Below, piece by piece: positions 3,101 through 60,400 of a DNA stretch of 64,000 bases. The notes beneath the pieces are model-generated. The model searched no databases, was not told the origin of the DNA, and saw nothing but the letters and a program-made list of their open reading frames with translations. Every line of letters starts with the position of its first letter. The stretch's first letter is position 1. The stretch lies in assembly GCA_964019135.1 (NCBI GenBank), contig OZ025264.1:6031935-6095934 (forward strand), given 5' to 3'. The DNA comes from Arenicola marina. Taxonomy: Eukaryota > Annelida > Polychaeta > Arenicolidae. Both the position numbers and the translations under genes were made by a program.

Positions 3101-4548
3101 TGCAACTTCTTTCCGATAAAATTAAACCTGAAAAATGTGGTATAAAGCGTCACGAAATGTGATATTGGTACCGGTAGTTAAAGTAACCTATATTAAATTT
3201 AAACTCCCTTTTTCAACATCAAATTGTGTGTTAACGGCTTGCCATTCCGTTACCTATCAAACAATAGTAATCTTATGGCAGCTTTATGTAACATATATTA
3301 TTTAATCAATTGAGTAAAACAGCTACCGGTAATAACTTACTTCTGATATGAGGAATCTCCCAGGGCTAAAGTCGCAAAGGTCACAGCTGCCAATGAAGTC
3401 GCTGGGAGATTTCTTCTGAGTATAAACTTCCAGAATGACTGAAACGAATGTTTGTGAAAATTTCAGTCAGCTACATACATAACTATTCCTTTTGGCAATT
3501 AAATTACATAACTATTTCCGTAAGTCAAGTCAAGTTTATTTAATCAAGTGAATACCTAAGAGATAACACAATTAAGTGTCATAACGAAGACAAGAAACAA
3601 CAGATTCATTCACATGGTCGAGAGACTCCAGTGAAAACCTGTTGGCCGCTGGCACTAGATCACCCTTACAATATGCATATTTAATGAGGGCAGCTAGGTT
3701 ATTCAATTGGTTGATTTAAAAGAGGTACATTTCAAGTGAATACAAATAAGATCATAAGATCATATTTTAAAACAGACATAAAATGTCGGACCATGAAAAA
3801 TATTTTTACCTGCATATTGTCTGGAGCATCTCCTTGTCCTGTTGTGGCTACAACAAATATAACCAGTTGTTCCTCAATCAAGTTGCCCTGAAATAGTATT
3901 CATCAGTATGACACTGTTCTAATTAAAATTGGTGATTAAAAGGTAGACATGTGCAGTCACCCAGAATAATAAATAGCTCAGAGTGAAACGCCAAAATTAT
4001 ATAGTTTAGCTTGAGCCAAAAGTTATGCCCCCAACATTAATTATCTGTGGCAAACTTTTAGTTCATTTTCATGAGCAAAAACATGAGGAACAAGATAGTA
4101 TTAACAGTTGCATAGACTATGGTAAGGTTTAGCTATAGAAGAAGAAAGCAGCCAAAAAAAACACACAAATATATCTGCTATGTGATCAGTAGCCAGGAAC
4201 CCAGCATTGGTAAAAACAGCATAATTCACTGATATATCATTAATGTACTAATACTTAGTGCTAGTTTTTATATTTTTCCCAATGTGAGCATAACTTTTAT
4301 CTAAGTTTTGTTATCCTAAAAACGTTTTTTAAATTGTTTCCTTGAATATTAGTGTCAACATATAATAATATTATGCATCTTTAATACAAGAAACTTAATT
4401 TTACCACAGGGTAATCATCCAAGGCTTGTATGCATGTCTTGAAATGTCGTCTCTTGGCATCACGACCAATTCTTTCTGCAGCTTCTTGTGCAGTACCAGT
4501 TTGACTTCCAAAGAGAATTGCTATCTTTCTCCCTCCCAAGGCATCCAT
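139..4548 (-). CDS. NDOR1: NADPH-dependent diflavin oxidoreductase 1 (Tah18 family), N-terminal 362 codons, partial
   Basis: Nine exons on the minus strand, in coding order: 4405-4548, 3810-3887, 3341-3438, 3029-3127, 2689-2790, 2000-2221, 1001-1122, 365-537 and 139-186. All junctions are GT/AG and phases match, giving 1,086 nt. The start is MDALGGRKIAILFGSQTGTA, with the FMN phosphate-loop signature GSQTGTA. The flavodoxin domain follows (VVATTGQGDAPDNM, LALGDSSY, LADDQHDLG, about residues 1-150). Next come a linker and the start of the FAD-binding/connecting region (SNERVTAPDHWQDV, GDVVMVQPEN, CSIRHLITKYLDI, GYVNRPRRTTLE). This order and wording match human NDOR1 as I recall it. The family passes electrons from NADPH through FAD and FMN to CIAPIN1/Dre2 in cytosolic Fe-S protein assembly. 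The FAD-binding core and NADPH domain must lie left of base 1. The donor of exon 2689-2790 (TT before GTGTGT) was chosen because it alone keeps phase and is the least certain junction. Confidence 0.93.
2235..2480. repeat. 54-bp minisatellite, about 4 copies, NDOR1 intron
   Basis: The phrase CACTGTGTTA recurs every 54 bases (near 2248, 2302, 2356, 2410), with shared TGTTATTATAAGG between. The array begins about 15 bases upstream (in gene sense) of the acceptor of NDOR1 exon 2000-2221 and ends in an AT-rich stretch. The plus-strand reading frame is open only because 54 is a multiple of three. Confidence 0.85.
3525..3720 (-). repeat. Dispersed repeat, possible LINE 3' tail (copy 1)
   Basis: Shares ATCAAGTGA, GACAAGAAACAACAGAT, CGCATGG/CACATGG and CTGT(T/C)GGCCG in the same order with 20203-20345. 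On the minus strand it ends TTGATTAAATAAACTTGACT, which looks like the 3' end of a CR1/L2-type non-LTR element. It lies in an NDOR1 intron. The family assignment is inference. Confidence 0.5.
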
Positions 4549-5190
4549 AATGAAATTCTATCAGATAAAATAAAAATGATTTCCTAATTCACATTTACAT
4601 ATAATTCCTCAATATCTGCCAGCAACAATAAATTAATGGTATACATAATAAATAATATTTTTATATTTGGCCAACCCTGATTTCAAATTTCTCTCACTGA
4701 TCATTAAAGTTGCATGTCGAGTTCTTTCCCGCCAAAACTAAGCCCAGGCGAAATTTATTTGCAGAAAACTTGATTGTTCCATTCCATAAATTCAGAAACC
4801 TGATAAACCTCGTCGTTTCGGCTGTGGTGTGGCAAACGTGTCCATCCCACGACTTCACCATAGCACTCTGTCGCGGCACTGCTACTTATAACAAAGCATC
4901 GCGAAGCACACAAACTGATGATGTTTACCACTGAAATGAAAATTTGTGGTAAATTGATACCACGGGCAAGGCTAAGAGACACTATTTGGCAGTCTGGCAT
5001 GGGTGGAGTACACACAAAACCAATCTTGAATGAGTCAAGGACTGATTCTTATTTATATTTTGACCTCTTTAGTTTTGGCGAGAAAGAGTTCAACATGCAA
5101 CTTTAACATAAATATTTGTAAATGCCTCTTGATACTCACTTGTTTTCAATCACTTCATACTTCTTGAGATATATACTGATTGTATATGAT
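4549..5190. other. NDOR1 upstream region, no further gene seen
   Basis: Immediately 5' of the NDOR1 start. I see no TATA box, no convincing 5' UTR exon and no conserved coding phrase on either strand. Short open frames here (such as 4710-4934 plus) carry no family signature. Confidence 0.5.
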
Positions 5191-18200: not shown

Positions 18201-21200
18201 TTTATGCAACAATTCATGCTAGTGGACTGCACCCGACCTGAGTAAAAGTAATGTGTGGAGGTATACTGATGTATAATGTGCTTATTTAGGTTACCTCATG
18301 GATATACCCAGGCTACTGAAGAAATGCAGCCACTGCCTGAAGATAAGATGTTACTGTTATATAACATTTGAGAAAGGGACAATAGTGATGGCTTATTTTC
18401 AGGCTCTCTCTCTCTGTGGAAAGCCCATGTTGCATTTGGTAATAGATGCTGCATATTTGGATGTATTTGGATGTCCACTAAATAAGCAATTTGCTCCCCT
18501 TCTTTTCAAGAAAGATATCACTGGCTCTGTATAAAAGGCTTAGAAAACGCTTTTCCTGTGCAGATCTTTAGACTTTTCCTGCAATGTCTTTCATCTTTGC
18601 TTCAGGTTGATTAGGCTTAAATATGAAATACTTCATTGTCAAGCCTAAATTAAGTTTACATTTAAATGCTTGAACGATTTTGTTAAATATTTAAGACTTG
18701 AGTCGGATATCAGTCACACCTTCAGTGTGAAATTTGTTGCGGCAGGCATCAGTATACATGTACTTCCGAAGTTCTGCCTTGGAGATTCAAGATTCAATAT
18801 CATTTATTCAGTCAAAGCAAACTGGTACATAGATAGGATACGATAGCAATATGGGAAGAAAGTACTGCTTTGACGCTGTTAAGGAAAGAGAACCGCTTGC
18901 GTCAGAGCCACATATATCCGGAGAAGCCAGACTTGATGGTGTAACTTGATTCAGCTATTGTCTTATAATGTGGGCCATAAAGAAAATTGATACCGGGTCA
19001 GGTCGTCGAGTTTGTTAAGAGCGGTGGGGGGGACTCTAGAGAAAAGCTTAGACTTGGGTCCCTCAGACGCGACAATAAAAAGGTGACTTATGCACCAAAA
19101 ATTACAGTACGTTCAAGTTAAATGATGTAGACTTATTTCGCTATGGCAGCGTCTATGTTTCCCCTGTCACATAGTAACTGTGCATACCATGGTGAGTGCT
19201 AGCACCATCGGTACAATAAATCGATTGACACAGAATAAATAATAGTAATGCTTAGTGTATCTAGCTCACCCTGCTCTGTACCTGCCAACCCTTTTGGAAG
19301 CCCCCAAATCCCCCTCTTACTCTTATTTACCTCCTCTAATTAATGCATTCCTCTTGTTCAAGAGTTCTTTAACTTTAACAAATATTTATTATGTTTCTTG
19401 GATATACAATAACAAATTATGATCATAAAGTTTTCAAATATTACAAAAGTACGGTAACTTCTGATTCAGTTTCTGCTGCCCTGCTGTTAGAGAGGCCACT
19501 TCAAACTTGTTACATAAATTATATGAACCTTAATTTAATGCCATGGTGCATGAAAATGGAACATGGGAGTGTAAGTGCCTTGGGATTTGTGGCAGTAAAT
19601 TTAGTGTGAATATTAAGTTTTTTTCTTTTTTTAGGACCATACTGGCCATCGCTGGAGAGGACTTTGCTGTAGTAGCTTCTGATACAAGATTAAGCGAAGG
19701 ATTCTCAATTCATTCCAGAGATTGTCCAAAAGGTCGAGAGCTGTAAGTTGTTGCATTGTCCATGTATCTGTGACAGAAAACTATAATTGTCCCGGTGTCT
19801 GCTTTTAACACAGATACAGATGTACCGGTAGTTTGGGGGAGAGGGAATTTTATTTAAGTAATGTAATATCTATGTTGAATAAGAAAGTATGAAATCTTGG
19901 AACACAAGCACTTCTAGTATACAGTTTAAGACCACACCAGCCAGTACATAATTTACTCATTAGTCAATGTATGGTTATTGTTACTGCAGAACTGACAAAA
20001 CCGTCTTGGCATGCGCTGGTTTCCATGGCGATGTCCTCACACTCACAAAAGTTGTAGAAGCCAGATTGAAGGTTTGTATAATGCTCTATAAATGTATTTG
20101 GATACTTGTCTTATGCATGCAACTGCTTGCTAAAGACTTGTCTAAATGCTAAATACTGCCAGGGTAATTAATACACAACTAAACAAATATCTCACTGCAG
20201 CAATAATTTTTTTAATCAAGTGAGAACATAAATAAATGACATGTTGTGAAGAGACAAGAAACAACAGATGGATTCGCATGGGAAACTTAAGACCTGTCGG
20301 CCGTTGACCTGAGAGTCGCTGTAGTTGTTGCAAATTTCTTTAAACTAAGGATAATCTTGTGGAGACAACGTAACATATGCTCATATAACGTGATAGCTAT
20401 AAGCATTTACAGTGATAAATGTTAAAAGGGTTTACTGCTGGTCTCCTAACAGATGTACGAGCATGAACACCACAAGAAGATGAGTTCTGGGGCGATAGCC
20501 GCCATGATGTCCACCATGTTGTACTACAGAAGATTCTTTCCCTACTATGTGTACAACATCATTGGAGGTCTGGACGAAGAAGGTATGCAATCCGCAAGAA
20601 ATATGGCATATTTGTCATACATTATTAATTGCATTTATGTGTACATTTCGTTCGTTGTGCAATAGACGATTTTTAAACGAAGCGTCTACTTATTATTTCC
20701 ACTGACGTTATTACCTCACAGATTATAAAATGGCCCAGTGATCTATACCATGATATTGTTTAGCAATGGTGCCGTGTTTTACCTGTTTCAGGCAAAGGCT
20801 GTGTGTACAGTTTCGACCCCGTGGGTTCCTATGAGCGGGAGACTTACCGAGCCGCCGGGTCCGCCGGAGCCATCCTCCAGCCACTCCTTGACAACCAGGT
20901 GGGTGGTCACCCCAGTGGACTGGGCGTCTGAACTGTGAATGCTGGTCTCGCTCACTATATCCGTACCTTAACGTCTTGAATGTAGGTTTAACCGGTATGT
21001 TTTACCGATTTACGTTAATGAAAAATCTCGTAAATTACACCTTTCCGTCATAGCTTTTTTAGCCCTTATCAGTGTTCTCAATAATCTCGAGATGATATTG
21101 AATACAATTTAATGCAGAAAACCCACCTTCTGGGGCTTAACAAAAATTCGAAATTCTTAGCACCGCTATTACCGCACCTTGCATTTAAAAAAAAAAAAAA

Positions 21201-21591
21201 TCCGATATGCGAGGCTCCTTGATGTACACGCACTACACAGAAGCTCAATAGGTCTTGGGTTGGAATCTAATCTGGGGCATGTTTTATCGATTCATCCTTC
21301 ATCTTTCCGGGAGGTTCCTTGGCCCAGTTTAGCCGTTGTGTGACCAAAAGCAGCCTAAAAAACAATTCATTTCATTTCATTTTTTCTCCTTTTCTTCTGT
21401 TCCAGATCGGGTTCAAGAACATGGAGGGTGTCAAGAAGGTGCCGCTGAGCAAGGAAAAGGCCGTGAACCTGGTCAAGGACGTGTTCATCTCGGCCGCCGA
21501 GCGCGACATCCACACCGGAGACGGACTTCAGATCCAGATCATCACCAAGGATGGCGTCCAACTGGAAAGCTTCCCTCTCAGACGGGATTGA
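12216..21591 (+). CDS. PSMB1: Proteasome 20S core subunit beta type-1 (beta6)
   Basis: Six coding exons: 12216-12313, 19635-19742, 19990-20071, 20453-20582, 20792-20898 and 21406-21591. All are GT/AG, phases match, and the total is 711 nt or 236 residues plus stop; human PSMB1 has 241. It starts [17 protein letters not shown]. Conserved phrases follow in order: [100 protein letters not shown], and [20 protein letters not shown]. The subunit is a structural, catalytically inactive member of the beta rings. The N-terminal 25 residues are poorly conserved, as in other animals. Intron 1 is 7.3 kb, far longer than the other four (247 to 507 bases), and is packed with small repeats. Confidence 0.97.
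12843..13140. repeat. Diverged tandem duplication (about 160 bp, two copies), PSMB1 intron 1
   Basis: The series CTGACCTATCCATGA, ATACTGAAC, ATTGCTAAAT, GAGTAA, CTTGAACACTCAC and TTTTATCATCATCC recurs about 160 bases later with scattered differences. Confidence 0.75.
13500..13665. repeat. About 40-bp AT-rich tandem repeat, 4 copies, PSMB1 intron 1
   Basis: AATAATTGTTGCCTTTTTT followed by ATTAAACTTTT recurs four times with small differences in the T run. Confidence 0.8.
14165..14690. repeat. About 265-bp tandem duplication, PSMB1 intron 1
   Basis: Matching landmarks in both halves are GAACAATATATA, TTTAATTTTTCTCAA / TTTAATTTGTCTCAA, AAACTCTTCAAATTA, GGGTGGAGGCAT, AAATTGTTATATTTAAAAAG and CTGCAGCTGAAATTT. 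The copies differ at scattered sites and short insertions. Confidence 0.8.
14953..15056. mobile_element. TA-flanked MITE, family A (copy 2)
   Basis: The same ends as 6141-6233 (GCCTGAATGTTCAGACG, inverted at the right), with TA on both flanks, and 11 bases longer inside. Two copies 8.8 kb apart confirm a mobile family rather than a chance hairpin. Confidence 0.85.
15071..15286. mobile_element. Foldback element, 216 bp with about 40-bp inverted ends
   Basis: The left arm contains CATAAATGCTGTAGACACAC and GTTTCGGCCCAT. The right arm, inverted, gives CATAAATGCCGTAGACACAC and GTTTCGGCCCAT, differing at about two sites. About 130 bases of unrelated sequence lie between. No coding capacity was seen. 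It starts 14 bases after the family A MITE at 14953-15056, so two elements sit side by side in PSMB1 intron 1. Confidence 0.75.
16045..16100. repeat. (TTAA)n and T-rich low-complexity tract
   Basis: About eight TTAA units embedded in T/A-only sequence within PSMB1 intron 1. Confidence 0.8.
16960..18015. repeat. G-rich dispersed repeat fragments, PSMB1 intron 1
   Basis: GGGG(A)GTACTTAATACATTGCT followed by GGTTTG occurs twice (about 17661 and 17970) in a G-rich setting. A separate stretch at 16960-17200 repeats AGAGCGGAT / AGAGCAGAT phrases. No element boundaries could be set. Confidence 0.4.
18782..18860 (-). repeat. Possible LINE 3' tail fragment
   Basis: On the minus strand the sequence ends TGACTGAATAAATGATATTG followed by AATCTTGAATCTC, a short tandem tail typical of non-LTR element 3' ends. 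It is too short to name a family. Confidence 0.35.
20203..20345 (-). repeat. Dispersed repeat, possible LINE 3' tail (copy 2)
   Basis: Second copy of the repeat at 3525-3720, sharing GACAAGAAACAACAGAT, CGCATGG and GACCTGTCGGCCG. It lies in PSMB1 intron 3, on the opposite strand to the gene. Confidence 0.5.
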
Positions 21592-23913: not shown

Positions 23914-26900
23914 TCATCTGAAGCAGATGGGGCCGACCTCGAAGCCAAACGCCTGGTTGTCTTCCCCGTAGTCACTGGGTCTAAAGTCAGTGATAGGGAA
24001 GCGGTTGAGTCGGTCGGAGGTCACAAAGAAGTCGGTGCGATCAGTTACCACTCCGCTCTGAAAGCATGAATAAACGTATCGCAAGGTTAATACATGATAG
24101 ACCGATCTCGGCTGTCAATCATTCATTCACGTCACTGTTGCTTTATCTAACCACGTGGCGAAAAAAGATCTTCCACGTGCGTTACGTCCGACAAACAAGT
24201 CGGACAAAGAAAGCAGCACGTCACTTTCTTGTCAGTTTCAGACGTGACTACTCTCCACTTGTACATTCCATCAGCTATGATTGTCAATTTCATACCCATG
24301 ATTAACAAAAAAAGACTCAAGCGTGGGCGGGGCGTAGCTCGGAGTGTGGAACGGTGTGAAACAATCGATCCCTTAATTTTGAGGTGTATATGGGACGATA
24401 TTTGTCGCTACTGCAGTTAATGCTAAATTTGATTAGCGACCAGTTATTCGTTTGTTTGGCAAGACTTCATTCATACTGAATGACAAGGACTGGCATCCTT
24501 TAACATGTCAGGAACATTAAATAGCTTATACAAATTGGTAAACTTGAACCCGAGCAAAGAAGAAAATGGAAAGCTCTATCGACAATGAAGTCATCCACAA
24601 TTGAGATGCATGACAAATGATGCAACGACAAAAAGGTATATTTTGTGACATTTACAAACGTTAATATCGATAGGCAATTAACGCATGCATAGCAGTATAC
24701 TTGCTCACCTTGCACCCATCCACAACATTCTTTTCTTTAAACGTTTTCGTCCTGAACTCGTGATCATTATCGCCCATTATCCAGATGGCGTGCCGCATGG
24801 CTTTGTCAGTGCGCGCATCCTCCCAAGCGACGGAGTTCTGGCAGAAGTAGGTCAGTCGCTGGCGTCCCTTCGAGTGGAGCAAGCGTAAGAACGCCATCTG
24901 CACTGGGTCGACGTAATTGATCTAAAAACGAAAACAGATAATGTATATATATAAATCAATGACAGCCCGTAGTTTCAAGCAGCAGTATTATATTCTGCCA
25001 TTTTATCCTTATTTTCCACGAGGACGATATTTGTCACTGTTGATCATAACATCTGAAAATGCAGCACTAACCTTGAATCCGCCGGCAAGTTCACTGAACC
25101 ATTTATCTTTTTTGGTATTCTTGGGGTAGTACTGCGGGATGGCCTGTAACAATGCAATTACACGTGTTAGATTGCGAGTTAACAAGCACTGACTTTATTC
25201 CTCAATATAAAGTATTTAAGGTGGTTATTATATGGCTAAGCCGACGACAGATTACTTTTTTTTCATTTTTGTTCTTACATTTTACCAAAGATCAAAACGT
25301 AATTGTGAACCCATTGAAGGGAACGAAACGCCTGGACGTTATTCTCATTTTACAGAAATCAAATTTAAAAGGCGGCAAATCTGTCGTGTTGGTCCGGGGG
25401 GAATTGCCGCCTGGAAAGGACCCCCTCAGCGCCCTATTTCTGAATGGCGTTGGTCAAATGGGGAGTCGACCTGCTAAGTTGGCAAGTACAGGTCGTAACA
25501 TTTTGGCTGTCGCATGATCCAGACAAGTGCACCGAGTGGCATGCAATCGCGTACGAAAAAGAGAGACGAATTTCAACTGTATAACTGGAATTAGTTTTCA
25601 GTTGACAGCTAGTTAAAATTCAGTTGTTCCTCAGCTAAAGAATTTATCATGCAAAATAGTTACATTTCAACTGCCCAAATTTCAATGTTGAAAACTGTTC
25701 ATTTTCGTAAGAGATACAGTCGTCGTGGCGCCGTTTCTGTGATTTCGTCCCCAAAACGACAAAACAATATGACGATGAAATAGCCATATGCGTCTTAAGA
25801 CTCCACGCTAAAATGTAACGTGTGTACACTGTACTCACCATTATGGAATGTGACTGAGCGTACACTGTACTCACTATTATGAACTGTGATTCGGCGCACA
25901 CTGTACTCACCATTTCGGACTGTGACTCGGCGTACACTGTACTCACCATTATGGACTGTGATTCGGCGTACACTGTACTCACCATTATGGACTGTGACTC
26001 GGCGTACACTGTACTTACCATCATGGACTGTGATTCGGCGCACACTGTACTCACCATTATGGAATGTGACTCGGCGTACACTGTACTCACTATTATGGAA
26101 TGTGACTGAGCGTACACTGTACTCACTATTATGAACTGTGATTCGGCGTACACTGTACTCACCATTTCGGACTGTGACTCGGCGTACACTATACTCAGCA
26201 TTATAGACTGTGACTCGGCGTACACTGTATTCACCATTATGGACTGTGACTCGTAGTACACTGTACTCACCATTATAGACTGTGACTCGGCGTACACTGT
26301 ACTCACCATTATGGACTGTGACTCGGCGCACACTGTACTCACCATTATGGACTGTGATTCGGCGTACACTGTACTCACCATTATGGACTGTGACTCGGCG
26401 TACACTGTACTCACCATTATGGACTGTGATTCGGCGTACACACAGGTCTCGCCACCGGACGACATGTTGCAGTAGACGTGGATGGCGTCTTGCGGAACAC
26501 CGATGTTTGGATCCACCCAGAACCAACCTGGTAATATCAAATAAATGAAAGTCATGGATCTATCGTACTTTTATTATAAGTAGTGAACCCCCCTGGATCT
26601 ATTTTTAAGCAGGTTGGACCGAAGAGCAACAGGTCATGGATTCAACGATTCTTACACTGTCAACCTATTACACTATTCAGTGGCGGACCTAGGGAGTAGG
26701 GGGTTTGCCCCCTCCCCCATGCGAACTTCACCATACTCTGTAAAAGTCGGGTTCTCCGAGCAACCCGGTCGCAAGTTTCAGAGAGCCACCCCCCCCCCCC
26801 CACCCCCTCCCTCATTGCAAATTCCTAGATCCGCCCCTGCTATACAAACAATAAGTCATTATGTGACTTAAAGTGAATGGTTTGCGCCAGTGGCGCTTAG

Positions 26901-36017: not shown

Positions 36018-39000
36018 CAGCCTTTTTGTTGTGTCCAAATTATGGCCGAAATAATTATCCGTACCTGCACTTCGTATGCTCTATGCCATATGGGTAATAT
36101 ATATATGGTATTATTATATGATGGTGGAAGATTGATTCCGTATTGTAGTGAGATCAGGACTCACCGCGGGTCCCCTGCTGCCAGGAGCACCAATCAATCC
36201 ATGTTTTCCTATATCACCCTGAAATTCCCCGGCAAAAATGTTAATATTTCATTATCGTTTCATGGGATATATTAATTGTGGAATTAATGGAATTGGAATT
36301 GGAATTAATGGAATTGTTCGCCAGTTATCGGTATCAGATACTAATATCACATCTCTTATAATAACATTATTATCGCAAAAGCCAATATATATCCACCACA
36401 AAAATTGATGATAATAGTCATAACAGGTCAAAGCCAAACACGCCAGGATTTGTACCTGATCTCCCTTTTCTCCTCGTGGTCCCAAATTTCCTGGAGGACC
36501 CGGTCGCCCCTGAAAGGATTATTGCATATTTCATAGTACGCTTTACATATGTTTGAGTCTTACTTTTCGATGGATTCCTTTTGACATTCATGATTCATGC
36601 ATCTGTCATGGAATTTGTAAATCATATTCTTTCTTTTTTGACAACAGAAGCCACATTCTACACTTTCTTTGAATGGAAAATATGAATTATACATAGACAA
36701 ATATACTTTCAGTCAAATTTGGATACCAATTAAAATTGGAATATTATTTATTTTTGGCATCTTATTGGCACAATACATCTTTGAAGTTTACACATTTCAA
36801 AGCTATAAATTGGATGTACATTTTGACAATATGTAATCATTCCAATACTGGGTACTTTGGTAAATTGGTTTGGTGATTGGTTTGTGTGTACATATATGAT
36901 GACCTCCACATCTGACATGACAAGAGGGGCAGTAGGATCTTGTGTGTTCCCTAGCTTCATACTCGGCTATTACGTGTAACCACACATTTAGATACCTGAT
37001 ATCGGACATGTTTCGAGACGCGTTTGGCCGACACGCCGTTGAATTGTTTTTTAGACTTTTCCAAAGTTGGTCACGTGGCCTGGAAACATTCCATCACATG
37101 AAAGGGAGGTGTGTGTGTGGGGTGGGTGGTGGGGGGGGGGGGGGTAGTCTGTGAGGCACAGCCACACGCAGGCCAGTCGTTATGTATAGACGGCTGGGGA
37201 AGAGACTAAGGGGAAGTGGGGGGGGGCAGCTACTATTAGATCATGTACCACAATAGGAGTGATTACAGTATATCGCGGTAACTCACCAGGGGGCCCGGGG
37301 GTCCTGGTGGTCCCTGCTCTCCCCATTGTCCTTTGTCGCCCTGGAAACGGAAAAAACAAATGCAAACATAACAACCACGAAAAGCAATTTGGGACAAGTA
37401 TATATACATGTTAAAAATGGCGGCGTCTTACAATAAGCAGGTAGACATATCACATCAATGGTATATGATGACGTTTAAGATATTAACAACACAGTTACGT
37501 GAATCATTGTTTTAATTGATAATCATTACAATCCGCCGGAGGGCAGCACCTACCGTGCGTCCTCGTGGCCCGGCAGGTCCGTGGTCTCCCTTGTTTCCTT
37601 CAGGACCCTGCATCGCGAAGAAAAACATCGATGTTTGTGGAATATGTCGAGTATCACAATATGCTATTTTGACGAAGAAAGATCCCAAATTGTCACGGGA
37701 TATCAGAATTTTTTTAGGTATTTGATACAAGGAAAGAACACATAAAATATGACTCAGGTTCAGGTTTAAATTTAGGTCGTACTAACGGCGAGAATATTTC
37801 CTCAGTGTGTCTATGTCATACATTGCATAGTTTTATATCGATATATTTATATATATATATGTATGATTGCGACAATTACAATGGACAATAATTGTAAAAA
37901 AAATAATATTACATTTAATGATTATGAACTGCCCCTATTCGTATAGTTATTGATCCGATTTAGACTTACCGTGGGACCTGGGAGCCCGCGGTCTCCTTGG
38001 AAACCCTGTTTCCCTGGGGGACCAGGTGGCCCCGCGGCTCCAGCCTGTCCTGCTGGACCCTACAAGAGGAAAATGAATCTAGCGCGTTATTAAATATCAT
38101 TTTACATGTCTTCACGATGGAACGATGGAACAATTAATGTAATTCGCCCTGGCGAATACTAACATAATAATAAAATAGTGAATAATAAATAAATAACTTG
38201 TAACAAATCAAATAGAGAACAATAATGGAAACAAATATTTCCAATACGCTACATGTTTTCATGTTATGTCATAAGATGGTAAATACGAATAAAAACTTGA
38301 AGTAACATGACGCGTAATGTAAGGAGTTGTCTCATGCGGCATTTCGTACCGCGGGTCCAGCTGGGCCGAGATCTCCTGTTGGGCCGACATCTCCAGTTGG
38401 ACCCTGTAGTAAAACACATGACATACACGTTACCATACACATTACCATATCAAGTTGATACCCCCACCCACCCTGATGTCTGTGGAGGGAGCTGTTGACA
38501 GGTATTTGGGCGAATATATTGGAAGTCTTGAAAATTGGTTTCAAGCCATCTAAAGCGAAGCGGTCCAATTTAATCGTTTCTCTCGAAGAGATTTTTCACA
38601 TAAATATATGAACCTTCTTCGCTCTCAAGGGGAAGTAAAATTCAAACTATATGCCTAATGCATATAGTTCTAATATCAACAAATGAGAAAATAGGTTTCT
38701 CACATAACTCACCTAAAGTGGGATATTCTACATGCCACGAATATATAATATACAAAATATATTATAATATATATTATCCCAAAGAAAATGTGCATCCCGC
38801 TAAGCCTTTTGATAAAAAGTTAAATAAAAGTAATGGCAACGGTTAAGACAGAAAAGGGTGAGACGCCAGTACGATCAGGAGTTTGTTGTGGAGTGATAGG
38901 GTACTCACCGGCAAGCCGGGTGCTCCTCTCTCCCCGTTGGGTCCGGCTTCTCCTTGAGGTCCCTGACAACATACAACAGATTAATATCACGTTAATACGC

Positions 39001-51000: not shown

Positions 51001-53990
51001 TTGCCGAGTGTGCTCTACTAACTAGGCCAGCCCAAGCGGCCAATGTGTGGTTGTCTGGGTCCGTACTGGATGCAGATCCCATGTCTTCATTCCTAAAGAG
51101 TATGACGGTTACTCCAGGAGATATGGTCCCTTAATACCTTGACCCGTCCTAATGTCGTGATATCACGTATCGAGGTTGATACGCCAAACTTAAACCAAGC
51201 AACCCTCACCAGCCCCCCCCCCCCCCGCCCCCGCCAGATGGGGGGGGGGGGGTGTCGCAATCAGGACTTACCTGATCACCCTTGGGTCCATGCGGCCCCG
51301 GGGGTCCACGGACACCGGGCGGACCTTGCTGGGCCTGAAAAAAAAAATCATGATGTAATAATTTTCTACGAAATATTTCTTAATCATATCTAAACCAAAG
51401 GCTAAATTTGGTAAATCTCTCTGGTTCAATTATTCAACTGAATCTTAAACAATTTTGAATCGTTTGAGTTATAAGTGTTTTAGTAATATTATCTAATTCA
51501 TTACAATGAAATAATGCAATTGTTACTATATGTATTACTACATTATTACTATATGTATTACCACATTATTTCTAGTATGTAGTAATTGGTCAAGGCAGAT
51601 ATTTGCGTACTTACCCAGGTAGGATATTCCGCATTTCCACCATATCCGATTTCCCACTCAGATCCGTCTCTTGCGCCCTAGGACCAAGAATGACACCATC
51701 AAGTGGATTAGTTTCTATAAAGATTGGAAATCACTTATCGAACCGCTGTTCAAGTCACTCACCCAACCGCCATTCTAGTCACTTACCAAACTGCCGCTCA
51801 AGTCACTCACCGAGCTTCACTCATCGAGCTGCCGTTAAAGTCACTCATCTAGCTACCGTTCAAGTCACTCACCGAGCTTCACTCACCGAGCTGCAGTTCA
51901 AGTCACTCACCGAGCTGCCGGGGAGACCACCGCTCCAGCTGCCGTTGACGAAGTAGCTGGTGTTTCCCCTGGCGAAGGGGACGCTGCACTCCGGAGTGTA
52001 GTACTCGCAGACCTCGTAGGCGGCGTCCGGATCTGGCACCACCAGGAGCTCCTGCACGTCGCCCTGGATACCGGAACAGCAACAACAACAACAACAATGA
52101 GGGAACGTGTGCGACCGAAATCGACAGAGCCCGTCATTGCTCCTTTAGTAGACTTCTGCCGATGGGAAGACATCGCCAAGACGTTAAATAACATGTGACG
52201 ATCCCTTATTTGTTTAACGTAATAGGTAATATAACAGGCAATACGTTGGTTGGTGAGATGGTTCAGGGACATACGGCACCAATGCACGCGTGGGTATGGT
52301 TGCACCCAGTTAATTGGGTCAAAATACCAATATGGCATAAAACACGCTTTAAAGTAAAACACGGGGTTCGAACTACGTCATTTTTGGCTATGGGCTCACC
52401 TCGAATATGTCTTCATTCAGGAGTTGCCGCGCAAGGAAGATGATGCCATCTGTGTTGAGCTTGGCCCCCGGCACCGTCCGGTTGAGTGCCACGGTATCGG
52501 TGATGGAACAGTCGTAAAAGAGCGTCACGCTGTCCCCCTTCACGCTGAGACCTACACGATGCCAGCTGCGAACGCAAGGTCAAGGTCAGGATCGTTGTTA
52601 CAAAGGTTCAACCAACGGAGTGGCTATCCTAATGTTGTCCTAAAATGATCGCGATCGACTGCAACCTTTGTAACGCGTGTGCATGGGTCGACGATGCGAC
52701 TACCTTTGGACTGTTTGCAATCTTTGTAACGCGTGTGCATGGGTCGACGATGCGACTACCTTTGGACTGTTTGCAATCTTTGTAACGCGTGTGCATGGGT
52801 CGACGATGCGACTACCTTTGGACTGTTTGCAATCTTTGTAACGCGTGTGCATGGGTCGACGATGCGACTACCTTTGGACTGTTTGCAATCTTTGTAACGC
52901 GTGTGCATGGGTCGACGATGCGACTACCTTTGGACTGTTTGCAATCTTTGTAACGCGTGTGCATGGGTCGACGATGCGACTACCTTTGGACTGTTTGCAA
53001 TCTTTGTAACGCGTGTGCATGGGTCGACGATGCGACTACCTTTGGACTGTTTGCAATCTTTGTAACGCGTGTGCATGGGTCGACGATGCGACTACCTTTG
53101 GACTGTTTGCAATCTTTGTAACGCGTGTGCATGGGTCGACGATGCGACTACCTTTGGACTGTTTGCAATCTTTGTAACGCGTGTGCATGGGTCGACGATG
53201 CGACTACCTTTGGACTGTTTTTTCGCTCTAATGCTTTGAATTAAGTTCAATGATAGCGACGCGTTCAAAAAGAGAATGAACAAGTTGCCACGTACGCATG
53301 CTGCTTCAATATTCCGTACTTACTGAACATGTTTTGTTCAGAACTCTTTCACAGAGCATGAACCATGCATTACTGGCTACATATGTCCCCTTAAGACTCC
53401 GTATCAATAGGAAATAAAACACGCGTCACTATGTACGCATGTTCCCTCAGGACTCCGTACTTACTACCCATGGAGAATAAATCCCGAGTTACTATATACT
53501 CTTTTTCCCTTAGGACTCCGTACTTACTACCCATGGAAAATAAATCCCGCATTACTATATACTGATGTCCCTTTAGGACTCCGTACTTACTACCAATGGA
53601 GAATAAACCACGCGTTACTAGGTACGCATGTCCCCTCAGGACTCCGTACTTACTACCCATGGAGAATAAATCCCGCGTTACTATATACTGATGTCCCCTT
53701 TGGACTCCGTACTTACTACCAATAGAGAATGAACCACGAGTGACTAGGTACGCATGTCCCCTCAGGCCTCCGTACTTACACTCCGTCCGCCATGTCGACG
53801 CTGAACCTGGGTGACAGCCCCATGCCCGGCAGACCCATGTGGTCAGTGTAGTACAGTCGGGGCTCCGCCGAGATCTCCAGTCCCAGGATCTCGCGAGAGG
53901 TGAGCCCGCTGTACATCATGAACAAAGTCCCCCGCGTATCCTTCTTGGCCTTAAACGTCGTAATGATGGAGAAATCCTCCGGAAATTCAT
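23914..53990 (-). CDS. Clade-B fibrillar collagen (type V/XI alpha-like), 5' exons missing
   Basis: Fifty-six minus-strand exons were assembled, running from a TSPN exon ending at 53990 down to a TGA stop at 23914. All have AG/GT-type borders and matching phases. Order: TSPN domain, short variable region, minor helix, hinge, major Gly-X-Y helix, furin-type site, COLFI propeptide. Sections are listed separately with exon coordinates. The nearest relatives I recall are vertebrate alpha1(V) and alpha1(XI). Compare [16 protein letters not shown] with their [30 protein letters not shown] with LALRGPAGPMGLTGR, and [11 protein letters not shown] with NPARTCKDLQL. Such chains are secreted and nucleate thin collagen fibrils. 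The signal peptide and the first part of TSPN are not seen between 53991 and 57494, so they lie in or beyond the large array upstream, or outside the window. I give no symbol because the paralogue cannot be decided. Confidence 0.95.
25822..26441. repeat. 36-bp minisatellite made of a collagen exon end plus its splice donor, 17 copies
   Basis: Each unit, minus strand, holds the exon end GCCGAATCACAGTCCATAAT, then G, then the donor GTGAGTACA. The first copy is the real end of COLFI exon 26415-26527. Candidate exon ends recur every 36 bases from 26415 down to 25839. The minus frame is open through the whole array (repeating [12 protein letters not shown]). One copy, after 26199, has CT in place of the donor GT. 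A block of the array recurs at an offset of 252 bases (7 units; compare 25851 and 26103). Confidence 0.95.
26678..26839. mobile_element. hAT-like MITE with CAG(T/G)GGCGGA ends (copy 1)
   Basis: The left end is CAGTGGCGGACCTAGG and the right end inverted is CAGGGGCGGATCTAGG. The interior is C/G-rich with no open frame. Similar ends bound 44548-44840. CAGGGGCGG-type ends are common in hAT-derived non-autonomous elements. No clear 8-bp target duplication was found, so the superfamily is inference. Confidence 0.6.
27809..49581 (-). CDS. Collagen major triple-helix exons (44 exons)
   Basis: Exons, N to C: 49525-49581, 48575-48628, 48086-48139, 47704-47757, 47329-47382, 47010-47063, 46419-46463, 45960-46013, 45288-45332, 44860-44913, 44257-44355, 43863-43907, 43514-43567, 43246-43290, 42815-42922, 42431-42484, 41572-41625, 40926-40979, 40579-40623, 39852-40004, 39387-39494, 38909-38962, 38350-38403, 37970-38059, 37554-37607, 37287-37340, 36456-36509, 36165-36218, 35808-35861, 35140-35247, 34808-34861, 34355-34462, 33120-33281, 32464-32571, 32078-32131, 31411-31518, 31056-31163, 30279-30332, 29743-29796, 29337-29390, 28689-28796, 28315-28368, 28142-28177, 27809-27844. 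All but the first begin with a Gly codon and are multiples of 9 nt (36, 45, 54, 90, 99, 108, 153, 162). With the first triplets of exon 27084-27453 the helix is 1,008 to 1,011 residues, close to the 1,014 of vertebrate fibrillar chains, with no interruption. That near-match argues that no helix exon was missed. Confidence 0.95.
29880..30130. repeat. Irregular minisatellite, about 6 to 7 copies, collagen intron
   Basis: TCTATGGCGCGCCGATAT followed by (T/C)ATCATA recurs with spacers of about 35 to 50 bases. It contains repeated GGCGCGCC sites. Confidence 0.8.
32640..32960. repeat. About 27-bp AT-rich minisatellite, about 11 copies, collagen intron
   Basis: TTGTTAGAAAACGGTTTTC and its variants (ATGGTTAGAATTTTTT) recur about every 27 to 29 bases with steady drift along the array. 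Confidence 0.75.
35944..36018. repeat. (ATT)n microsatellite, about 24 units
   Basis: A trinucleotide run with one ACC interruption near its left end, in a collagen intron. Confidence 0.95.
39610..39745. repeat. Degenerate tandem repeat, collagen intron
   Basis: GACGCCATTTT / GACGCCAATGTGGA / CCAGTTTGAACGC phrases alternate at 18 to 36 base spacing over about 130 bases. Confidence 0.6.
41765..41998. repeat. About 34-bp minisatellite, 7 copies, collagen intron
   Basis: CAACCAATAGCCAACTAACC followed by ACGTTATATATGTT recurs about seven times, the first copies lacking part of the unit. Each unit has a CCAAT word. Confidence 0.8.
44548..44840. mobile_element. hAT-like MITE (copy 2)
   Basis: The left end is CAGGGGCGGATTCAG and the right end inverted is CAGGAGCGGATCTAG. 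AGTT follows the element and a partial match (AGTTTAA) precedes it, so a target duplication is possible but imperfect. It lies in a collagen intron and is non-coding. Confidence 0.65.
49645..49790. repeat. About 26-bp minisatellite, 5 copies, collagen intron
   Basis: ATTATAGTGACAGTCCGATC with a short CATAATT link recurs five times; the last copies are shortened. Confidence 0.8.
50237..51677 (-). CDS. Collagen variable region, minor helix and hinge exons
   Basis: Exons 51615-51677, 51272-51334, 50622-50696 and 50237-50311. The first encodes [20 protein letters not shown] and one Trp. With the last 20-odd residues of the preceding exon, this is all that stands in place of the long acidic, Tyr-rich variable region of vertebrate type V/XI chains. 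The next two exons make a minor helix of about 13 Gly-X-Y triplets ([37 protein letters not shown]) ending HVFVIP. The fourth is non-helical, [20 protein letters not shown], and aligns with the alpha1(V) FRFGGGGDAGSKGP hinge. Confidence 0.88.
50945..51040 (-). mobile_element. tRNA-derived SINE fragment
   Basis: On the minus strand TGGCCTAGTTAGTAGAGCAC is a good box A/D-arm. TCGGC...GCCGA forms an anticodon-like stem and CGGGTCACCCG a T-arm-like stem. Box B is degenerate, so a decayed SINE head is more likely than a working tRNA gene. Confidence 0.45.
51729..51915. repeat. 24-bp array of exon end plus donor at a TSPN exon, about 9 copies
   Basis: On the minus strand GCAGCTCG followed by GTGAGTGACTTGAAC is the real border of exon 51911-52063. 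It is repeated downstream with drift, two units being shortened to about 14 to 15 bases. The array fills almost the whole 233-base intron to exon 51615-51677. Confidence 0.88.
51911..53990 (-). CDS. Collagen TSPN (laminin G-like) domain exons
   Basis: Exons 53780-53990, 52400-52565 and 51911-52063. Visible phrases are [86 protein letters not shown] and [20 protein letters not shown]. The order and the two C-terminal Cys (EVCEYY, PECS) match the TSPN domain of alpha1(V)/alpha1(XI). The first residues of the domain are missing, since exon 53780-53990 enters in phase 1. In the family this domain is a globular N-terminal module that limits fibril width and is often retained on the fibril surface. 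The donor after GGAGT at 53780 is fixed by phase with the WHR exon. Each outer exon border is next to a tandem array (see findings). Confidence 0.93.
52657..53220. repeat. 56-bp minisatellite, 10 nearly identical copies
   Basis: GGTCGACGATGCGACTACC recurs exactly every 56 bases from 52686 to 53190. Apart from the first copy (GCAACCTTT for GCAATCTTT) the copies look identical. Each unit contains ACGCGT, GTCGAC and several CpGs. It lies between TSPN exons, about 90 bases upstream of the acceptor at 52565. Confidence 0.97.
53310..53780. repeat. 63-bp minisatellite carrying donor-like sequence, 7 to 8 copies
   Basis: On the minus strand each unit has GTAGTAAGTACGGAGTCC. The real donor of exon 53780-53990 reads GTGTAAGTACGGAGG, in register with it. 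Intact copies are spaced 63 bases apart (CTCCG at 53453, 53516, 53579, 53642, 53705, 53768); the copies below 53450 are degenerate. Confidence 0.9.
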
Positions 53991-54002: not shown

Positions 54003-54310
54003 ATGGTAACCAAGGGAAGCATGTCAAAGGAACAAAAAAGGGGTCACCAATGAAAGCCTGTCGAAGGAACAAAAAGTGGTAACCAATGAAAGCCTGTCGA
54101 AGGAACAAAAAGTGGTAACCAATGAAAGCCTGTCGAAGGAACAAAAAGTGGTAACCAATGAAAGCATGTCGAAGGAACAAAAAGTGGTAACCAACAAAAA
54201 CATGTCAAAGGAACAAACAGTGGTAACCAATGAAAACATGTCGAAGCAACAAAAAGTGTTAACTAATGAGCACGTCAAAGGAACAAAAAGTGATAACCAA
54301 TGAAAGCCAG
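54003..54310. repeat. 36-bp minisatellite carrying acceptor-like sequence, about 8 copies
   Basis: On the minus strand each unit reads GGTTACCAC, then TTTTTGTTCCTTCGACAG, like a pyrimidine tract plus CAG. The real acceptor of exon 53780-53990 is GGTTACCATTCGTTCTTCCAG shortened, aligning with the unit. Spacing is 36 bases (54050, 54086, 54122). Confidence 0.88.
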
Positions 54311-57300
54311 TCGAAGAAGATGATAGCGATAACGCGTTGAGGTCGCATATGACGCCCCTCCCTCAACCGCCCCCCCCCCTCTCCAGCGGTTCACGCTTTG
54401 TTAGGGTACTACATGGTAACCTGACATAAACCAGGACGCTGCTCAGTGAATATAGGATCCATTGTGCTTTTCTCATGTTGGACGCGATTCAAGATTTCAA
54501 GGATATTGCCCCCATTATTCAAGCTCCCCGTGCGGTGGCCCTACGCAAGCTAGCTTTTACCGCGCTATAATGGAGCCCTAGCCGTGTGAGTTGAAGGCAG
54601 ACAGTGCCCATTATTGTGCAGCAGCGGTGTGCGCGGAAGGCGCCACCTAGCGAATGAACGAGCTTGACATGATGCCACAATGACGGATGCGTCCGCGCGC
54701 ACAATCGCCGTTCCATTGAGCTGCACAGTTCTTCTGTTTCCGGTGTAGTTTCATGCTTTGGGGACCAACAACAAAACACGTGCTTTGATAAAGAGTGCGA
54801 ATCACGTTAGTGCCTTGTTACAGCTGCGTGACGCGCACTCATTGTAGTCAACGTTCGGGTGTGGGTGTAGAAATATTTTGTGTTTGCTTTTGTCCAGCTG
54901 CAAAAGCTGCACGACTTTGTCAAAATCTACTGTGACGAATATGCTTAGATTTGCATACTTTATATACAAGCAAGTGGCTTGGCGCTTGTATCCTTTGATC
55001 ATTCGTGAGTTAACCAACAAATTGCTTTATTTATTATTCAGGAAAACAGCAAATCGGCCAGCTAGAAAATGAACAGGACCCATTATCCTACAACCTGCCC
55101 CCCATTAGTAGTCCCATGTGACGTTTTCTATGGAAAACAACCCTATTCTTTGCACACTTTAGGAGCCATTGGCGTACCAAAATGCACGAAAAAAGGTCCT
55201 TTCCAGCGGCACGTCCCTAATAGTCAATTGCTTTGAGACCCCCCCCCCCCGACCCCCCACCATCCGGGTATAAATAACGACTTTAATCTCTCCATAATAC
55301 ATTTGGTTTCCTAACGTGTTTTTTCACTGTTGCCACAGTCCCAGTCACTCACCAAACAGCTGGTTTTAGTTCTCATATAGGCATTAAATTCATTGCTTCG
55401 TTTTGTATCTAGGGATAGCCTATTGACAGTTTTTTCCCGAAGCGAACGAAATCGAATAACCACCGGGCAGTAGCATCGACGTGCAGCATAAGTGTTCTTG
55501 TCGCGTGGGGTCTCCACCAGATCCCGTACGCAGTGACTGATGCGCTATTGACGCGTTGTGGCTGCACCTAGCGAAGAGGCCGGAGCTCGGACACGTTGGT
55601 GACGGAGACAAGGGAACTTGAACTGGCGAGAAAACTCTCCGCACTTTCCCGTGCACTTGGAAAATGAAAACTAGGAGTGCATAACCTCCCTTGGAAGCTG
55701 TAATTTAAATTAAGCACATCCATTACATAGTAAAATCCCCGACTAGTCCTGTTTCTTACTGAGTATCCGTGCCCGACGGTAGGTTCAACGCCAGCCATGA
55801 TGGGGAAAGATATAGGCCTATGACGGGTACAAAATGCACAACATGGACATGTACTTAGTTCATACGGCGATCTCCTTGAGAGAGAGACCAGACACGTTTG
55901 ATAACATCGACGTATGGTAGTCATTGGCTTGTACATACTGTTATCCATTACTGCAGTACGTTCCCTGTTAACTTTAGTAAAGATATACCGTAGTATAAAA
56001 CATTAGATGTGACGTGTCCACCCCATGAAAGCAAGAGATGTTCCGTTTGCGTTTCAAGTGGTGTTTTTATATCCCTGCCCCCCTTCTCTGGCTGTAGGCT
56101 AAGGCGGGCAAAATGGGACATGGCAAACCCTCAAGCCCTATCTGAGCTCTTTTCTACAGCAATGGAACTTGGGCCACCCAACACTTACCCGAGGACCCAG
56201 GGGTGCGTGTGGGGAGGCTGCCGATGGGTCCGCGACCCTTCTTTTGTGGAGCCCCGAACCCCGCATTTCGTAAAAGCCCAGTCGCGGAGCGATTGTCCCC
56301 CAACCGTCGCTCGATTGTCGAACCTCCACTAATTCGGTCGTAAGTTTTTCGAACCTATCCCCCTTTGCATCCGTGGATCCACCCACGTCCCCCCCCCGCG
56401 CCCCTACTGCTGTTAAATTTACCCCCCCCCTCTAATTTTTTCATAAAAACCAAAATTTGATTATGACGTTAAATCAATTAAATCTAACCCACAGCGGTAT
56501 TTTCCCATGTCTGACCCGCAGCTCCCTGGAGCATTCCCCCGGCTGACCTAGTGAGGATACAAACAAACGGCGAGACACACTTGCAATCGCTATATGCCTT
56601 CCGGGCCACTTCACGGCCCAAGGACACAAGCCGTAAACAGCTGGGTCGAGACAGGATGGACTTCTTCTCCCCGTCTGTATTAACTGTGAAACGGAATGCC
56701 TGGCGGTCTCGTGCATTTCGGAGCAAACAGAGTCGATATATGGGACATTTGATTATGTGGGCGATATTTGAATTAAAAAATTCGTTTTTTGCCGGTTTTC
56801 TAACTAATTTTGGCTAACTACTAGGGAAGGTGTTTTGTTATTTACTTTCAAACTACTCGACCAGGAGATAATTCTGAAGATGTTTTTGAGTGACCAAATG
56901 CCATAAAATTTAGTCTGGTACTCCTAACACTTTTGAAACCCTTTAGTTTCCACACCACAACGAACGCCTTCTCTCATTAACCAAACTGGGCTGAGTGGAG
57001 CACTCGTATGTCACACACTAAGGACGCCTCCCATAAGGAATCGTCTGTAGATTATAGGAGACGTCCGTCACAGAAGGACGATCCAGGAATGATATTTGTG
57101 TGCCACCTGCAGGGTGTCATTTCACCAAGATCTCGTAACTTTTGCTCGTAAAGGTAAAACATTGCATTGCCGGCCAGAAGAGGAATGGCAATATTTGAAT
57201 TTATCATAAATATCAGGCACACATGTTTTTAAATGATGCAAACATGTTTTTGAATAATATTGGTGAAAAATAAATGGCACGAAGATGACTGCACCCCGAG

Positions 57301-57494: not shown

Positions 57495-60400
57495 AAAGAC
57501 AGCCTGTGAGGCTGCAGAGAGAGACTGATTGGTCACACATTCCTCCCTGTGAGGCTGCAGAGAGAGACTGATTGGTCACACATACCACCCTGTGAGGCTG
57601 CAGAGAGAGAGACTGATTGGTCACACATACCTCCCTGTGAGGCTGCAGAGAGGGATTGATTGGTCACACATACCACCCTGTGAGGCTGCAGAGAGAGACT
57701 GATTGGTCACACATACCTCCCTGTGAGGCTGCAGAGAGAGACTGATTGGTCACACATACCTCCCTGTGACGCTGCAGAGAGAGACTGATTGGTCACACAT
57801 ACCTCCCTGTGACGCTGCAGAGAGAGACTGATTGGTCACACATACCTCCCTGTGAGGCTGCAGAGAGAGACTGATTGGTCACACATACCTCCCTGTGAGG
57901 CTGCAGAGAGAGACTGATTGGTCACACATTCCTCCCTGTGAGGCTGCTGAGAGGGATTGATTGGTCACACATACCTCCCTGTGAGGCTGCTGAGAGGGAT
58001 TGATTGGTCACACATACCACCCTGTGAGGCTGCAGATAGAGACTGATTGGTCACACATACCACCATGTGAGGCTGCAGAGAGAGACTGATTGGTCACACA
58101 TACCACCCTGTGAGGCTGCAGAGAGAGACTGATTGGTCACACATACCTCCCTGTGAGGCTGCAGAGAGAGACTGATTGGTCACACATACCACCCTGTGAG
58201 GCTGCAGAGAGAGACTGATTGGTCACACATTCCTCCCTGTGAGGCTGCTGAGAGGGATTGATTGGTCACACATACCTCCCTGTGAGGCTGCTGAGAGGGA
58301 TTGATTGGTCACACATACCACCCTGTGAGGCTGCAGATAGAGACTGATTGGTCACACATACCACCATGTGAGGCTGCAGAGAGAGACTGATTGGTCACAC
58401 ATACCACCCTGTGAGGCTGCAGAGAGAGACTGATTGGTCACACATACCACCCTGTGAGGCTGTAGAGAGAGACTGGTTGGTCACACATACCACCATGTGA
58501 GGCTGCATAGAGAGACTGACTGGTCACACATACCACCCTGTAAGGCTGCAGAGAGAGACTGATTGGTCACACATACCTCCCTGTGAGGCTGCTGAGAGGG
58601 ATTGATTGGTCACAAATGCCACCCTGTGAGGCTGCTGATAGAGACTGATTGGTCACACATACCACCCTGTGAGGCTGCAGATAGAGACTGACTGGTCACA
58701 CATACCACCATGTGAGGCTGCAGAGAGAGACTGATTGGTCACACATACTTCCCTGTGAGGCTGTAGAGAGAGAGACTGATTAGTCACAAATGCCACCCTG
58801 TGAGGCTGCTGAGAGAGACTGATTGGTCACACATTCCTCCCTGTGAGGCTGCAGAGAGAGACACTGATTGGTCACACATTCCTCCCTGTGAGGCTGTGGA
58901 GAGAGTGACTGATTGGTCACACATACCTCCCTGTAAAGCTGCTGAGAGGGATTGATTGGTCACACACGCCACCATGTGAGGCTGCAGAGAGAGACTGATT
59001 GATCACACATACCACCCTGTGCGGCTGTAGAGAGAGACTGATTGGTCACACATGCCATCCTGTGAGGCTGCTGAGAGAGACTGATTGGTCAAACATATTT
59101 CCCTGTGAGGCTGCTGAGAGGGATTGATTGGTCACACATACCACCCTGTGAGTCTGCAGAGAGAGACTGATTGGTCACAGATACCACCTTGTGAGGCTGC
59201 AGAGAGAGGCTGATTGGTCACACATACCACCCTGTGAGGCAGCTGAGAGAGACTGGTTAGTCACACATACCACCCTGTGAGACTGCAGAGAGAGACTGAT
59301 TGGTCACACATACCACCATGTGAGGCTGCAGAGAGAGACTGATTGGTCACACATACCACCCTGTGAGACTGCAGAGAGAGACTGATTGGTCACACATTTC
59401 ACCCTGTGAGGCTGCAGAGAGAGACTGATTGGTCACACATACCACCCTGTGAGGCTGCAAAGAGGCTCATTGGTCACACATTCCACCCTGTGAGACTGCC
59501 GAGAGAGACTGATTGGTCACACATACCACCCTGTGAGGCTGCGGAGAGAAACTGGTTGGTCACACATACCACTTTGTGAGGCTGCAGACAGAGACTGATT
59601 GGTCACACATACCACCCTGTGAGACTGCAGAGAGAGACTGATTGGTCACATATACCACCCTGTGAGGCTGTAGAGAGAGACTGATTGGTCACACATTCCA
59701 CCCTGTGAGGCTGCAGAGAGAGACTGATTAGTCACACATACCACCCTGTGAGGCTGCTGAGAGAGACTGATTGGTCACAAATACCACCCTGTGAGGCTGC
59801 AAAGAGGCTCATTGGTCACACATACCACCCTGTGAGGCTGCAGAGAGAGACTGATTGGTCACACATACCACCCTGTGAGGCTGCAGAGAGAGACTGATTG
59901 GTCACAAATACCACCCTGTGAGGCTGCAGAGAGAGACTGATTGGTCACACATACCACCCTGTGAGGCTGCAGAGAGAGACTGATTGGTCACACATACCAC
60001 CCTGTGAGGCTGCAGAGAGAGACTGATTGGTCACCCATACCACCCTGTGAGGCTGTAGAGAGAGAACCTGATTGGTCACACATACCTTCCTGTGAGGCTG
60101 TAGAGACAGAGACTGATTGGTCACCCATACCACCCTGTGAGGCTGCGGAGAGAGACTGATTGGTCACACATACCACCCTGTGAGGCTGCAGAGAGAGACT
60201 GATTGGTCACACATACCACCCTGTGAGACTGCAGAGAGAGACTGATTGGTCACACATTCCTCCCTGTGAGGCTGCAGAGAGAGACTGATTGGTCACACAT
60301 ACCACCCTGTGAGACTGCAGAGAGAGACTGATTGGTCACACATTTCACCCTGTGAGGCTGCAGAGAGAGACTGATTGGTCACACATACCACCCTGTGAGG

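Follow-up and report, generated by a model that had tools for sequence, protein, structure and literature searches.

The polychaete Arenicola marina has a fibrillar collagen gene in which the end of an exon is repeated in tandem together with its 5′ splice site. This arrangement raises the question whether the additional donors are selected during splicing, thereby varying the length of the encoded C-propeptide, or whether they are carried along passively. The locus was analyzed within a window of 64,000 nucleotides (assembly GCA_964019135.1, contig OZ025264.1, positions 6,031,935 to 6,095,934), to which all positions refer. Central features are:

23914-53990, minus strand: fibrillar collagen gene, 5′-partial, 55 modelled exons with AG/GT borders, 1553 codons, the sole stop being terminal
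26415-26527, minus strand: modelled exon 52 with 113 nt, within the COLFI domain; the 36-bp unit takes its exonic share from the last 27 bases of this exon
25072-25143, minus strand: modelled exon 53 in phase 0, carrying the likely acceptor for all array donors
25824-26441, minus strand: 36-bp array detected by TRF, 17 units plus 6 bp, each unit consisting of 27 exon bases and GTGAGTACA; 17 donor-like sites, 16 of them with GT

Exons were accepted based on AG/GT borders and one open frame once joined, yielding the 55 exons from 53990 to 23914; exons farther 5′ lie outside the collagen model. The encoded Gly-X-Y helix is long and distributed over small exons (36 to 162 nt). Introns of 556 and 1,271 nt flank exon 52. 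Within the intron preceding it, imperfect inverted ends (CAGGGGCGGATCTAGG ... CCTAGGTCCGCCACTG) were recognized by eye at about 26839-26678 (minus strand), and this element looks like a short DNA transposon. Outside the collagen gene, a domain search with four pieces of neighbouring genes, one of which obtained no match, identified proteasome subunit pieces (PF00227) at about 19534-21591 (plus strand), which we take to be PSMB1-like, and a flavodoxin domain piece (PF00258) at 4381-4557 (minus strand), presumably NDOR1-like.

The C-terminal part of the deduced protein matched COLFI (PF01410; 1.6e-59, 201.5 bits compared to a cut-off of 26.2) and also the C-propeptides of COL1A1 and COL3A1, for which structures have been solved; two of the five PDB rows represented fusion constructs with COL1A1 and were left out of the structure comparison. 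Likeness of the N-terminal part to LamG/TSPN was weak (Laminin_G_2, E 0.00025, 21.9 bits, cut-off 22.9), the start of this domain being located outside the model. The chain (27084-26415, minus strand) is devoid of counterparts to the second and third COLFI cysteines of COL1A1. According to the cysteine code described for human collagens, chains unable to homotrimerise are without one of these two cysteines (PMC6181919); one is missing there, whereas both are missing here.

TRF described the array with a period of 36, 17.2 copies, 89% matches and 0% indels. Its length corresponds to 17 x 36 + 6, with GTGTAC at each end, and the repeated unit is composed of the exonic bases 26441-26415 followed by GTGAGTACA. 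Donor-like sites recur in steps of 36 bp from 26415 to 25839, the sole site lacking GT being the CTGAGT after 26199. Exon 52 ends in phase 0 and exon 53 (25143-25072) continues in frame. Use of an inner donor would insert residues directly after the cysteine aligning with the fifth of COL1A1 (C1-C8 numbering of this analysis). Much of this had been foreseen in the original prediction, namely the 36-bp repetition of the last 27 bases of exon 26415-26527 plus its donor, the spacing of the possible exon ends, the single loss of GT, the phase-0 exon 25072-25143 and the insertion behind COLFI cysteine 5; TRF, the comparison of units and the joined model with its single terminal stop agree, the calculation of n x 12 additional residues up to 192 is correct, and the cysteine assignment holds for a chain that lacks the second and third. 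Moreover, the 30-nt word spanning the boundary occurs at 16 further places within 1.2 kb with at least 75% match, and none of the control flanks equalled its best match. Its recurrence around the end of exon 52 is non-chance.

Repeats of this kind are known from amphioxus, where exon-intron boundaries of Adh3, troponin C, globin and PGBD5 genes are tandemly duplicated in so-called 'mirage' minisatellites (PMC3087553, PMC3902484); PGBD5 was added, and troponin C cited, by the second report. The collagen array resembles the amphioxus examples (Adh3, troponin C, the globins BflGb6 and BflGb9, PGBD5) in that the boundary itself is duplicated and splice signals lie within the units, as represented here by 27 exon plus 9 intron bases per unit, GT in 16 of 17 sites and full donor strength in 12. 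Furthermore, 36 bp falls within the 10-72 bp range given for Adh3 units, and signs of block copying exist in both cases (PMC3087553, PMC3902484). Units seven apart have eight derived states in common in ten comparisons, compared to 0-4 at every other lag between 1 and 12. Blocks of units were therefore probably copied, which, for this one sequence, suggests turnover of the array. Unlike the amphioxus mirages, the collagen array comprises 17 units, is in frame and open, resides in a C-propeptide exon and belongs to a gene with three donor arrays.

Human boundary minisatellites in segmental duplications provide a second comparison (PMC2812944). They share the exon-intron location, a unit of about 30 bp and the capability of changing splicing, and differ in that the human set was chosen as variable between recent paralogues, is backed by transcripts and contains four repeats on average. 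Among the matches listed for open-licence literature on boundary minisatellites and amphioxus or fibrillar collagen, titles and the beginnings of abstracts named no collagen array of this kind.

We assign a probability of roughly three in four to the interpretation that the array is a passive mirage minisatellite spanning the boundary, with splicing mainly from its outermost donor and perhaps some in-frame leakage. This is close to one of two options raised in the original prediction, a harmless buffer of redundant donors. In the proposed course of events, a 36-bp stretch consisting of the last 27 exon and first 9 intron bases and lying between GTGTAC direct repeats would have been tandemly duplicated. 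Duplication between the exonic and the intronic GTGTAC word may represent the origin, and a decayed last unit could look identical. As deduced from the unit table, growth to 17 units would have proceeded partly via copying of seven-unit blocks. The spliceosome would take the outermost donor at 26415, which lies closest across the exon to the acceptor upstream, in most transcripts, and the remaining units would be removed with the intron. Each unit included through leaky use of inner donors would add 12 residues to the C-propeptide. The array may be tolerated thanks to a unit length and phase that keep the frame, since leakage would lengthen rather than truncate the C-propeptide.

Donor strength was evaluated using a matrix trained on the gene's own donors minus those of the three donor arrays, and percentiles were calculated among 54 donors of the gene. 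Twelve of the 17 array donors scored at the 69th-78th percentile, three (gtgagt preceded by ATA) at the 22nd and a gtgaat site at the 15th; the CT site scored below all 54. Twelve of the 17 donors equal or exceed the first one in strength, which counts against a passive role. In regard to acceptors, the exon 53 site scored 10.6 (38th percentile of 55 gene acceptors), and no AG inside the array reached the weakest of these 55; outside the array, AG sites at 25470 and 25410 in intron 52 exceed that minimum. Given the ordinary exon 53 acceptor and the lack of an acceptor of gene strength within the array, array donors would most likely join exon 53 and add 12 residues per unit. A mechanism as described for human UBC, where splicing proceeds stochastically through repeated AGGT sites serving as donor and acceptor (PMC10809524), was ruled out, since AGGT does not occur within 26441-25824. 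The two systems have the in-frame array and one splice signal per unit in common; dual-specific sites are confined to UBC, and the collagen array contains no acceptor of normal strength.

For exons flanked by long introns, a preference for the upstream one among near-equal donors and for shorter exons has been reported, exons of more than 250 nt being less favoured, although the upstream preference amounts to only 60% overall (PMC9225289). Exon 52 passes 250 nt beyond three extra units. Applied to this exon, which presumes that its flanking introns count as long, these rules argue for 26415, which should be the main donor of exon 52; given the figure of 60%, some leakage to inner donors is likely and weighs against strict passivity. 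A stronger version, in which inner donors serve an appreciable minority of transcripts and the resulting longer propeptides would be neutral as the C-propeptide is cleaved before fibrils form, is considered unlikely, albeit the best of the alternatives. The near-equal donors, the modest upstream preference and the human boundary repeats, where two thirds of the intron modifications also show a repeat-retaining transcript (PMC2812944), are in line with it and speak against the passive interpretation. However, amphioxus mirages reportedly leave regular splicing undisturbed (PMC3087553, PMC3902484) and yield no aberrant mRNAs (PMC3902484), and the lower preference for exons beyond 250 nt also counts against such leakage. 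The amphioxus reports and the bias towards upstream donors and shorter exons likewise argue for the passive minisatellite.

Further evidence for the passive minisatellite originates from other arrays at splice borders of the same gene:

51741-51920, minus strand: second donor-duplicating array, containing the end of exon 3 (GGCAGCTCG) plus gtgagtgac; six GT[AG]AGT sites
53405-53779, minus strand: third donor-duplicating array, 63-bp units from the first base of the intron that follows exon 1; six gtaagt at 63-nt steps
54004-54316, minus strand: array of 36-bp units just preceding exon 1; three CAG sites in it (54129, 54093, 54057) resemble acceptors

At exon 3, the sites correspond to extensions of 0, 24, 38, 100, 124 and 148 nt. 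Read-through encounters a stop after 13 codons, only the +24 site keeps the frame before this stop, and three of the five extra donors score equal to the first. Read-through after exon 1 yields V followed by TAA, so that every extra donor there would be truncating; these donors are also weaker than the first (4.9 vs 6.2). Across both sister arrays, all extra donors except one would thus lead to a stop or frameshift. A functional gene requires that the outer donor prevails after exon 1, and either the first or the second donor after exon 3. Together with the boundary-spanning structure, these mostly unusable extra donors support the passive reading of the exon 52 array.

The 54316-54004 array stops 14 nt short of the modelled exon 1 acceptor. 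Its acceptor-like sites score 8.7 compared to 3.7 for the modelled acceptor at 53990, based on a matrix whose training exons mostly start with GG, and the collagen frame is open 5′ of 53990 up to 54204. The 5′ border of exon 1 is therefore uncertain. Two additional arrays were observed on this side of the window. In the intron before exon 2 (52660-53220), a 56-bp unit is present ten times with an identity of 99%, which suggests a very recent expansion. At 57503-62633 (minus strand), a 43-bp array of about 119 copies contains pyrimidine-CAG separated from GTATG by exactly 12 bases at 66 places, an arrangement resembling a mini-exon of 12 nt flanked by an acceptor and a donor of its own.

The possibility that arrays are aimed at splice borders was analyzed for 29 arrays, obtained by manual merging of 55 TRF rows; 20 of them lie within 23914-54400. 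Three of these 20 touch a donor, compared to 6.4 expected under free placement. In a restricted test with 19 arrays, from which the wholly exonic array at 38356-38400 was dropped, the three donor contacts compare to 1.7 expected (P = 0.25) for placements with up to 30 exonic nt and to 5.5 for up to 60 exonic nt, and acceptor contacts numbered zero (1.7 and 5.5 expected, respectively). Contacts with donors or acceptors are no commoner than under random placement; no sign of targeting to splice borders was obtained, and the idea was rejected. A scan of boundary words over 109 boundaries returned control fractions below 0.01 in 11 cases. Nine of these 11 are among the 18 rows listed: three represent the donor arrays, five have their match at another splice border of the gene and one (32078) has its match inside exon 42.

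An array that is open throughout had been taken as a hint that any copy could be used. The statement itself holds, as the collagen frame is free of stops throughout the array, but it carries little weight, since a second forward frame contains no stop either and the absence of stops is expected by chance. With transitions weighted 2:1, the probability of a stop per substitution is 0.049, and that of no stop after 17 independent substitutions is 0.43. Moreover, the first nine intron nucleotides read open in 53 of the 54 introns of the gene, and a unit length that is a multiple of three has a chance of one in three. An open frame as proof of use was ruled out on the grounds of the second open frame and of openness by chance. 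Among the 17 distinct variants between units, 13 are nonsynonymous, four synonymous and none a stop. This mix is near the unconstrained expectation (fractions 0.715, 0.236 and 0.049) and provides no sign of coding constraint. Donor-side bases are slightly less variable than exon-like ones (4/153 vs 30/459 cells, p = 0.07), which counts to some extent against a passive array. Known C-propeptides are fitted best with no inserted unit: the COLFI score decreased from 201.5 bits to 195.6 with one unit and 196.1 with four, and one unit cost the COL1A1 match 10.5 bits and the COL3A1 match 8.2 bits. Since profile scores penalise any insertion, these values reveal the ancestral length and say nothing of splice choice. 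The missing constraint and the fit without a unit are further reasons for regarding the array as passive.

These results bear directly on the functional option of the original prediction, a splice-choice cassette of variable length within a chain-selection domain, in which inner donors would often be used to include 0-16 copies of the 12-residue insert, with effects on chain assembly. The in-frame, open array, the GT in 16 of 17 sites (12 of them strong) and the UBC precedent of stochastic splicing across repeated sites (PMC10809524) would fit such a cassette. Openness, however, is expected by chance, the sister arrays are unusable in that way, a tyrosine is changed to cysteine in three units, the variants split 13 to 4, the COLFI fit is highest without a unit, and, as has been argued, the chain recognition sequence arose in gnathostomes only (PMC6181919). 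The cassette is thus unsupported and considered improbable. Its extended form, a population-variable ladder of up to 16 stochastically chosen donors placing 0-16 12-residue modules after the fifth conserved C-propeptide cysteine, so that chain assembly would be tied to the array length of the individual, is even less probable. Least probable of all is an assembly artefact in the array or its copy number, for which lancelet PGBD5 boundary repeats with copy numbers differing between two assemblies provide a precedent (PMC3902484), since the units are mutually different (34 of 612 cells, 17 variable positions) and two further donor-spanning arrays exist in the same gene.

The three donor arrays of this collagen gene represent a natural experiment on the choice of the spliceosome among near-identical 5′ splice sites, one array being permissive in frame and two being truncating or frame-shifting at all extra sites except one. 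Inner-donor products of the in-frame array should escape nonsense-mediated decay, so that donor choice would be readable in RNA in steps of 36 nt. Moreover, boundary repeats have been proposed as raw material for new introns (PMC3087553), and the collagen gene of A. marina adds one more case to this proposal.
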